DNA from: Henriciella sp.
GTDB lineage: Bacteria; Pseudomonadota; Alphaproteobacteria; Caulobacterales; Hyphomonadaceae
Direction of reading: 5' to 3'
Length of the DNA stretch: 64,000 nucleotides
Assembly: GCA_021776655.1 (NCBI GenBank)
Contig: JAJFFK010000039.1
Span: 55,059 to 119,058 of the forward strand
Shown: positions 4,394 to 7,720 of the stretch, in pieces
Layout: the number at the start of each line of letters is the position of its first letter
How positions within the stretch are numbered: position 1 is the stretch's first letter
Position numbers and translations under genes: made by a program
The notes under the pieces: model-generated
Told to the model about the DNA's origin: nothing
Databases searched by the model: none
Seen by the model: only the letters and a program-made list of their open reading frames with translations

Positions 4394-5619
4394 TGACCCA
4401 CCGTTCGTTCGACATAGATGCGATCCGCGCTGAGTTTCCGATCCTTGCCCGGCAGGTGAACGGCAAGCCGCTGGTCTATCTGGATAATGCCGCGAGTGCG
4501 CAGAAACCCGATGCGGTGATCGACGCGATGGGAACCCAAGCCCGCACGGCTTATGCCAATGTGCATCGCGGCCTGCATACGCTGGCAAACGAGACCACTG
4601 ACGCCTTCGAGGCGGCGCGCGAAACCGTTCGGAAATTCATCAATGCCGGGTCTGTGAATGAGGTGATCTTCACCAAAGGCGGCACTGAGGCGATCAATCT
4701 GGTCGCGTCCGGGATTGCCGGAGAGATCAAGCCCGGCGACGAGATTGTCCTATCCGTGATGGAGCATCATTCGAATATTGTGCCTTGGCATTTCCTGCGT
4801 GAACGCCATGGCGCGGTGCTGAAATGGGTGGATGTTGATGCGACCGGCGCGCTGGATATGGCGGCGTTGAAAGCGGCGGTCGGGCCGAAGACGCGGATGG
4901 TCGCGATGGCGCATATGTCGAACGTGCTGGGCACGGTGACAGACGCAGCTGAGATTGTCGCAATTGCGCATGCGGCGGGGGCGGAAGTGCTGTTCGATGG
5001 CTGTCAGGCCGGGGTGCATCTGCCTGTCGATGTACAGGCGATTGATTGCGACTATTACGTTCTGACCGGGCACAAGATTTACGGACCGACCGGCATAGGC
5101 GCGCTATATGGCAAGGCGGCGTCGCTAGCGCGACTGCGACCGTATCAGGGCGGCGGTGAGATGATTGAAGTGGTCGAGAAGACCCGCGTGACCTATAATC
5201 AAGCGCCGCACAAATTCGAAGCCGGGACACCGCCAATCCTCGAAGCCATCGGTTTTGGCGCGGCGATCAACTGGCTGGCGCAGTTCGATATGGCGGAGGT
5301 TCAGGCGCACGAGCACGCGCTATATGAACGCGCGATTGAGGGTGTTCGCGGCGTGAATGGCCTGACGGTGCATGGTACAGCGGCGGGGAAGGGGGCGGTG
5401 CTGTCTTTCTCAATCGAGGGTACACATCCCCATGACCTTGCGCAGATTATGGACCGCTACGGCGTTGCTGTGCGTGCGGGGCATCATTGTGCGCAACCCC
5501 TGATGCAGCATCTCGGCGTATCTGCTACGGCGCGGGCGAGTTTCGGGATCTATAATACCGCAGCAGAAGTGGACACCTTCATTGAAGCGCTACACAAAGC
5601 GCGCGGCATGCTTATATAG
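4393..5619 (+). CDS. sufS: SufS-type cysteine desulfurase
   Basis: PLP lysine motif TGHKIYGPTGIGALYG, RAGHHCAQPLM; position in suf operon. Confidence 0.96.
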   Translation: MTHRSFDIDAIRAEFPILARQVNGKPLVYLDNAASAQKPDAVIDAMGTQARTAYANVHRGLHTLANETTDAFEAARETVRKFINAGSVNEVIFTKGGTEAINLVASGIAGEIKPGDEIVLSVMEHHSNIVPWHFLRERHGAVLKWVDVDATGALDMAALKAAVGPKTRMVAMAHMSNVLGTVTDAAEIVAIAHAAGAEVLFDGCQAGVHLPVDVQAIDCDYYVLTGHKIYGPTGIGALYGKAASLARLRPYQGGGEMIEVVEKTRVTYNQAPHKFEAGTPPILEAIGFGAAINWLAQFDMAEVQAHEHALYERAIEGVRGVNGLTVHGTAAGKGAVLSFSIEGTHPHDLAQIMDRYGVAVRAGHHCAQPLMQHLGVSATARASFGIYNTAAEVDTFIEALHKARGMLI

Positions 5620-5623
5620 GAAT

Positions 5624-6019
5624 ATGATGGCAGACGATTTGACCCCTCGCGATGTGATTGACGTCTCTGCGCCCGCTGCAGAGGAGGCGTCTTCGGCGAT
5701 CCCGCAAAAAGAATTGAACCGGATTACCGATGATCTGATCACGGCGTTCAAATCTGTCTATGACCCTGAAATTCCTGTTGATATTTATGAACTTGGCCTG
5801 ATCTACAAGGTTGATATTGATGATGACCGCAAGGTTGATATCGACATGACGCTGACCGCGCCGGGCTGTCCGGTGGCCGGTGATATGCCGGGCTGGATCG
5901 AAAATGCGGCGCGCACAGTTGCAGGCGTTACAGATGTCGAAGTGCGCCTGACCTTCGATCCGCCCTGGGATCCATCGCGGATGTCAGACGAAGCGCGCCT
6001 GGCGCTGAATATGCTTTAA
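5624..6019 (+). CDS. sufT: SUF system protein, MIP18/DUF59 family (SufT-like)
   Basis: VYDPEIPVDIYELGLIY...MTLTAPGCPVAGDMP; ATG 5624 chosen as likely start. Confidence 0.9.
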   Translation: MMADDLTPRDVIDVSAPAAEEASSAIPQKELNRITDDLITAFKSVYDPEIPVDIYELGLIYKVDIDDDRKVDIDMTLTAPGCPVAGDMPGWIENAARTVAGVTDVEVRLTFDPPWDPSRMSDEARLALNML

Positions 6020-6433: not shown

Positions 6434-6934
6434 TTATTTCGACGGATTAGTGGCCGCGCAAGAGCTGGCAAATTCGGCAAAGTCAGCATTCATTGGCGGC
6501 AAGGTCAGCGTATATTCGCCAACCCGCGAGATATCGATCGCGACCGCTTCGCCTTTAATGGCTGCATTGAACAGACGTTTGCCTTGCCATGATTTGGTTG
6601 AGACCAGGACTTTTTGAGGCCGCCAATAACCCCATTTTGCGTCTCGCTGTGTATATGAATCGGTCGACATTTCCATATTACGAGATTTCAGCCTTGTGCG
6701 CGGATTGATTGGTGGGGTGCCACTGTCGGTACCATTGAGGTACAGGATCGCTTGAATACCGATTGAGTCAGAGCAAACCAAGGACAGGCTTGGGCCGCCA
6801 ACATCCTGAGCGAAGATGAGGGATGCGCCTGCTTCTTCGTCAAGCTGCCAGCTTGTTTCTGCGGCTTGGACGGTCATCGCGCAACCGAGGCTGGCAATTG
6901 AGGCAATGATGAGGTGGGTGGGGTTGGGGGTCAT
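6434..6934 (-). CDS. hypothetical secreted protein
   Basis: Signal peptide (MTPNPTHLIIASIASLGCAMTVQAAE); GAAGGAGA RBS upstream; no recognised domain. Confidence 0.6.
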   Translation of the reverse strand: MTPNPTHLIIASIASLGCAMTVQAAETSWQLDEEAGASLIFAQDVGGPSLSLVCSDSIGIQAILYLNGTDSGTPPINPRTRLKSRNMEMSTDSYTQRDAKWGYWRPQKVLVSTKSWQGKRLFNAAIKGEAVAIDISRVGEYTLTLPPMNADFAEFASSCAATNPSK

Positions 6935-7035
6935 GGCAGTCTCCTTCTTTGTTGAATAACGATAACATCATATTGAATAAAGGCAAACAATTTATCGATA
7001 AAAAATAAAACCTAGTGTTTTTAGGTATTTACCGC

Positions 7036-7066
7036 TACAATTGTAACAATATTGACTACAGGTGTA
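7036..7066. promoter_or_regulatory. tandem TACA-N2-TGTA operators (BlaI/CopY-type) in divergent intergenic region
   Basis: TACAATTGTA at 7036-7045 and TACAGGTGTA at 7057-7066 (second extends to dyad ACTACA-GG-TGTAGT); centres 21 bp apart; TTGACT overlaps second site. Confidence 0.6.
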
Positions 7067-7144
7067 GTTTATATGTTCTGAATCGCTTGGCCTCAGAGAC
7101 ATCGATGACTAACGTTCGCAGGTTCAGACAATTGGAGGGCGGGC

Positions 7145-7720
7145 ATGCTCTATTTTATCGCAGGAATGGTCATCTTCTTTGGTGCACACATTTATAGCGC
7201 CGTTCGTATTCGCGGAGAGCATGATATTAAAAACCGCATCGGCTACGGACCCTATATGGGGCTGTACAGCCTTGTCTCTCTGATCGGATTTGTGCTGATC
7301 GTCTACGGGTTCGGCGCCTTGAAAGGTGCTGGCATTCTATACACGCCGCCAAACTGGGCCCGGCACGTGAATATATTGCTGATGATTCCAGCCTTGATCT
7401 TGCTGGTCGCCTCGCAACTGCCGGCAGGACAGATCAAGCGGGTGACGCGCCACCCGATGCTGGTGGCTGTGAAACTGTGGGCGATTGGGCATTTGCTGGC
7501 CAATGGTGAGTTGAACTCGGTGCTGCTATTTGGAAGTTTCCTGGCCTATGCCGTGTTTGATCGGATCAGAGTTAAACGTCGCGGCGATATGGGGCCTGAT
7601 CTGGATGTGCGGGTCGCTGGCAAGATGGATGTTGTGTCGATTATTATTGGCGTTGGCGTATGGACCGCTCTGGCGTTCTGGCTGCACCCGGTTCTGTTTG
7701 GTGTTTCCGTGATCGCATGA
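7145..7720 (+). CDS. NnrU family membrane protein
   Basis: NnrU-like sequence (GLYSLVSLIGFVLIVYGF..., RHPMLVAVKLWAIGHLLANG); GGAGG RBS. Confidence 0.88.
   Translation: MLYFIAGMVIFFGAHIYSAVRIRGEHDIKNRIGYGPYMGLYSLVSLIGFVLIVYGFGALKGAGILYTPPNWARHVNILLMIPALILLVASQLPAGQIKRVTRHPMLVAVKLWAIGHLLANGELNSVLLFGSFLAYAVFDRIRVKRRGDMGPDLDVRVAGKMDVVSIIIGVGVWTALAFWLHPVLFGVSVIA

Follow-up and report, generated by a model that had tools for sequence, protein, structure and literature searches.

The divergent promoter region between a gene for a predicted secreted orphan protein and an nnrU-family gene is probably a target promoter of a BlaI-family repressor, BlaI-2, within what appears from sequence to be an envelope or peptidoglycan circuit. 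The region lies in the window, by which we mean the whole 64-kb stretch of DNA analysed, on contig C33 of a genome of 2.97 Mb in 47 contigs that we searched by pattern and by fetching loci. The bacterium, a marine one, is probably a Henriciella: loci L107 and L117, which share sequence with genomes of its genus, bear that name, and its named relatives belong to the Hyphomonadaceae. The operator sites, the two repressors, a protease–peptidase domain fusion, the repressors' autoregulatory operators and a set of recurring target promoters can all be read directly in the genomes compared.

Two palindromes between the orphan gene and nnrU

An exact pattern search of the window found only two TACANNTGTA sites, TACAATTGTA at 7036-7045 (site 1) and TACAGGTGTA at 7057-7066 (site 2). 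Both are TACA-N2-TGTA dyads within a promoter region, and their starts are 21 bp apart, just as an earlier note on this DNA had described. Shuffling of the window gave an expected 0.23 such sites, with at least two anywhere in 2 of 100 shuffles. The neighbouring genes are also as the note named them: on the minus strand, the orphan gene (6434-6934; 166 aa), and on the plus strand, the gene for an NnrU-family membrane protein of 191 aa (7145-7720; PF07298, E=1.7e-53). Searches of the orphan protein against Pfam and NCBIfam returned no match, and its AlphaFold model, with a pLDDT of 38.7, is of no use for assigning a fold. Site 2 does extend to ACTACAGGTGTAGT and overlaps a plus-strand TTGACT (7052-7057), which reads as a possible -35 element. 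No acceptable -10 element lies 16-18 bp from this hexamer, and a promoter scan returned zero sigma-70 promoters, so that no clear promoter includes the hexamer or gives the two sites a position relative to it.

Across the whole genome there are 11 copies of TACANNTGTA versus 34 of the reversed control. Five of these fall within genes and six between them; the probability of at least six intergenic copies is 3e-4, assuming 10% non-coding DNA. The intergenic six comprise one copy in the blaI-2 promoter, one in the region between a TonB-receptor gene and ddlB, the window pair, and another pair, 24 bp apart, of the kind for which the earlier note had proposed a genome scan. This last pair (G000:C20:44383-44416) lies upstream of an EF-hand gene whose product is small and secreted, and a second EF-hand gene adjoins.

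Two BlaI repressors, their M56 partners and their operators

The window's contig carries no BlaI (PF03965) gene, which bears out the earlier statement that no repressor lies nearby. Both PF03965 genes of the genome are on other contigs (C5 and C1), and each adjoins an M56 gene; the search suggested for the two families found both, and the absence of a BlaI homologue, which the earlier note had named as grounds for refutation, does not apply. The Penicillinase_R winged-helix domain scores above the Pfam cut-off in both repressors (BlaI-1, E=8.2e-32; BlaI-2, E=5.3e-17), and their recognition helices differ consistently. The M56 protein encoded after blaI-1 has 673 aa and ends in a long, charged tail. 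The blaI-2 gene is followed by that of a 458-aa protein in which a BlaR1-type M56 protease (E=8e-18) is fused to a C-terminal, periplasmic M23 peptidase domain (E=8e-22; G000:C1:20181-21554), and the repressor is encoded beside an M56 protease with an HExxH motif. Orthologues of this fusion are found within the genus and also in a second genus of the family, probably Hyphomonas, in six genomes of which BlaI-2 precedes them. All 20 orthologues compared retain HExxH together with the M23 ligands HxxxD and HxH, and a membrane segment is predicted between the two domains in these 20 proteins.

Neither M56 partner has a penicillin-binding sensor domain; a charged tail or the M23 domain is found instead, and their NCBIfam BlaR1 scores, 107 and 40, fall below the cut-off of 400. 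For lack of this domain we rejected a beta-lactam BlaR1 system proper, and the beta-lactam response for which the earlier note had suggested a test is unsupported. Control by copper through a CopY-type repressor is also very improbable. Site 2 does fit the published CopR-CopY 16-mer RNYKACANNYGTMRNY, and for both repressors CopY/TcrY is the NCBIfam model that scores best, though without reaching its cut-off. However, the C-terminal CxC copper motif is absent from both BlaI paralogues of the genome, on which ground we rejected the copper reading, and both repressors adjoin M56 proteases, not copper exporters. The earlier proposal of a BlaI/CopY-type regulon controlled in trans, possibly serving envelope stress or metal response, hence survives in part: there are apparent BlaI-family operators here and two BlaI genes elsewhere, and an envelope role fits the predicted regulon, whereas its CopY and copper components are unsupported, neither repressor having a CxC motif.

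The two paralogues have distinguishable operators, a point missed by the earlier note. In nearly all of 27 genus genomes the blaI-1 promoter carries TTGACCACANNTGTARTC, with another site 25 bp further along, and in 23 of 24 genus genomes, by our search rule, the blaI-2 promoter carries YTACANNYGTAR with flanks of G/C or T, often as two sites 14-17 bp apart. Sites of the GYTACANNTGTARC type occur in blaI-2 promoters across the genus, and CGCTACANNTGTAGY occurs in six sister-genus genomes. Each operator type is thus paralogue-specific and conserved across 23-27 genomes in the blaI genes' own promoters. Because the 10-mer alone is insufficient for CopY binding (PMC7253601), we tested the flanks of the window sites. 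Weight matrices for BlaI-1 (PWM1) and BlaI-2 (PWM2), trained without this genome, separate the two operator sets completely (51/51 and 40/40 sites), a result whose independent support lies in the flanks only, the training sites having been picked with the core motif.

Judged in this way, site 1 (7032-7049, core 7036-7045; predicted operator CCGCTACAATTGTAACAA) is clearly of the BlaI-2 type by its exact core, flanks and score. It is one of three full GYTACANNTGTARC matches in the 2.97-Mb genome, the other two being in the blaI-2 promoter itself and in the TonB-receptor/ddlB intergenic region. It shares its CGCTACA half with the operators by which blaI-2 would regulate itself, both in this genus and in the sister genus, and its 18-mer scores 17.6 with PWM2 versus -2.8 with PWM1. 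Site 2 (7053-7070, core 7057-7066; predicted BlaI-type operator TGACTACAGGTGTAGTTT) is ambiguous between the paralogues, scoring 15.2 with PWM1 (training sites, 21.2-29.7) and 14.0 with PWM2 (training range, 10.5-24.0). In their flanks both sites agree with the autoregulatory operators found at this genome's blaI genes, site 1 with those of BlaI-2 and site 2 with those of either. Of 20,000 Markov-1 sequences generated with the composition of this region, about 0.06% attained the score of each site, and none attained both. Inside an open reading frame of the window (5582-6019) there is also a lone BlaI-2-like match, GCGTTACAGATGTCGAAG at 5925-5942, with a score of 12.5 that is probably due to chance.

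That the two window sites are themselves chance palindromes would fit an AT-rich intergenic region and the lack of conservation of the pair. This is improbable, since the window holds just two such sites, 21 bp apart, their flanks match paralogue-specific motifs, and a site recurs at the same promoter in relatives. Instead, these matches suggest that they are true operators of the BlaI family, under the control of a repressor encoded elsewhere in the genome.

The question of which paralogue would occupy site 2 divides the evidence. One possibility, to which we give a little less than an even chance, is that both sites are BlaI-2 sites, paired as in the blaI-2 promoter. Many blaI-2 promoters have two sites 14-17 bp apart, the EF-hand pair offers another case in the genome at 24 bp, and the PWM2 score of site 2 falls within the training range; yet the left flank of site 2, GACTACA, is a BlaI-1 signature, and a 21-bp spacing is unseen at blaI-2 promoters. 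Alternatively, and we regard this as possible but rather doubtful, the promoter may be composite, with BlaI-2 at site 1 and BlaI-1 at site 2 integrating two BlaI/M56 systems. Site 2 lies within TATTGACTACA, nearly the TATTGACCACA of blaI-1 autoregulatory operators. Allowing one mismatch, GACYACANNTGTRGTC has four matches in the genome: two at blaI-1 itself, site 2 (one mismatch) and one on contig C2. The slightly higher PWM1 score and the difference between the recognition helices point the same way. Set against this, the PWM1 score of site 2 is lower than that of every training site, near-identical CTACAGGCGTAGTTT sites occur in BlaI-2 promoters of some relatives, and no relative has a BlaI-1-type site at the orphan/nnrU promoter. 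The shared TTGACTACA would by itself favour BlaI-1 at site 2, a case that the near-equal matrix scores weaken.

Conservation of the promoter and other predicted targets

The orphan gene is divergent from nnrU in nine genus genomes, and six of the nine have a BlaI-2-like site between the two genes, with scores of 11.8-18.1 (this genome, G000, and relatives G001, G003, G015, G041 and G022); the site is degenerate in G014 and G024 and absent in G006. In genomes that lack an adjoining orphan, no such site was found beside nnrU (0/14). The association has a Fisher p of 0.0008 that ignores relatedness and overstates independence, four of the five site-bearing relatives being close kin. Scores of that level occur elsewhere once in ~505 kb of other nnrU loci, and that single background match is in the orphan/nnrU intergenic region of a relative. 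Orphan paralogues elsewhere have no BlaI-like site scoring at least 11.8. Site presence therefore tracks the orphan and not nnrU, which the earlier note had also missed. Because the site occurs in 6/9 cases with the orphan versus 0/14 without it, the orphan gene is the likelier regulated target, with nnrU as a possible co-target; nnrU as sole target is weakened, as nnrU without the orphan never has the site.

Conservation across orthologous regions, which the earlier note had made a test of its reading, extends to a single BlaI-2-like site in five relatives but not to the pair or its 21-bp spacing. Only this genome has the pair, and the single site of the relatives stands at an alignment position unlike those in the window; the operators at this promoter thus exhibit site turnover and are not a fixed element.

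A second palindrome, TTATYG-N5-CRATAA, is present in perfect form in the orphan promoters of six relatives. In the window it appears twice, each time with one mismatch and with no strand assigned: TTGTTGAATAACGATAA at 6949-6965, in the orphan promoter, and TTATCGATAAAAAATAA at 6992-7008. The palindrome is strongly over-represented in the genus, usually with 4-10 copies per genome versus 0-2 for a control, and with at most one mismatch it precedes the DUF2807 (Toastrack) gene in all 10 of the promoters inspected. Both operator types thus occur repeatedly side by side in the promoters of the orphan gene and of the DUF2807 gene. Copies also occur at UrcA-like, GPP34-like and PspB-like genes, so named by sequence reading.

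Genus-wide searches with the extended motifs, followed by gene identification, point to further predicted targets. The BlaI-2 motif lies upstream of the TonB-receptor gene adjoining ddlB in 13 genomes; its distance to the start codon is 40-72 bp in the 12 relatives and ~55 bp in this genome, where ftsQ-like and ftsA-like genes come after ddlB. BlaI-2-type sites also occur at a hydrolase-like gene in three genomes and an amidohydrolase-like gene in two (these names, and those of ftsQ and ftsA, come from sequence reading, not family search). In eight relatives, each a different species (loci L285, L287, L293, L295, L297, L300, L303 and L305), a perfect GTTACA-N2-TGTAAC site, of the BlaI-2 type, stands between pspC and a downstream gene whose small exported product has ~57 aa; the window's own genome lacks this palindrome. 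BlaI-1-type sites lie 69-88 bp from the start of the DUF2807 gene in eight relatives. The DUF2807 gene of this genome (L382, G000:C28:8200-10800) has no BlaI-type site and keeps the TTATYG palindrome. Several further motif matches are inside genes or beside genes seen once.

A proposed circuit and its relation to known systems

We propose that BlaI-2 dimers would bind site 1, with site 2 serving as a second BlaI-2 site or as a BlaI-1 site, and would repress the divergent promoter in trans, acting chiefly on the secreted orphan gene and perhaps on nnrU too. The periplasmic M23 (LytM-type) domain may read a change in peptidoglycan and activate the M56 protease, which would inactivate BlaI-2 by proteolysis and so derepress the regulon. 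Binding by BlaI-2, the choice of responding gene and sensing by M23 are what we infer from the sequence features described above, and inactivation by the protease is proposed by analogy with BlaR1-BlaI.

BlaI/BlaR systems are known mainly as beta-lactam resistance switches of Gram-positives. The arrangement described here resembles BlaI/MecI-BlaR1/MecR1 of Staphylococcus aureus and Bacillus licheniformis in having a PF03965 repressor beside an M56 membrane protease, and TACANNTGTA operators that are often paired and lie also in the repressor's own promoter. It differs in that the proteases end in a charged region or an M23 domain in place of a penicillin-binding sensor, and in that the predicted targets are envelope genes. 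In B. licheniformis, a peptidoglycan dipeptide acts as a coactivator that loosens BlaI from DNA (PMC3305447), a precedent for wall-linked control that fits the sensing proposed here. CopY/CopR copper repressors share the repressor family, the core operator and the paired operators, which are mostly 24-39 bases apart (PMC7253601), unlike the present system in that the latter has no CxC motif and no linked copper exporter. Toastrack and PspC proteins are partners in envelope-stress systems (PMC11237479), and the BlaI-1-type sites before the Toastrack gene and the BlaI-2-type sites between pspC and the exported-protein gene, each in eight relatives, recall the phage-shock/Lia response; here, however, the regulator would be of the BlaI type, and neither BlaI nor M56 is mentioned in that paper. 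A limited literature search found no description of such a circuit, of alphaproteobacterial BlaI/M56 regulons or of an M56-M23 fusion beside a BlaI gene.

More speculatively, and on balance we think this unlikely, two paralogous BlaI/M56 systems, told apart by their operators and including one whose sensor is an M23 peptidoglycan-peptidase domain, might converge on one divergent promoter as a dual, non-beta-lactam wall-surveillance circuit of Hyphomonadaceae that also controls the TonB receptor in a division and cell-wall cluster. The sites make the circuit idea testable in Henriciella or Hyphomonas cultures and provide a list of predicted targets. The circuit appears to represent a little-studied form of cell-wall sensing, not antibiotic or copper resistance: a peptidoglycan-peptidase domain stands where BlaR1 has its antibiotic sensor, and a Gram-negative lineage seems to apply repressor-protease logic to its own envelope.
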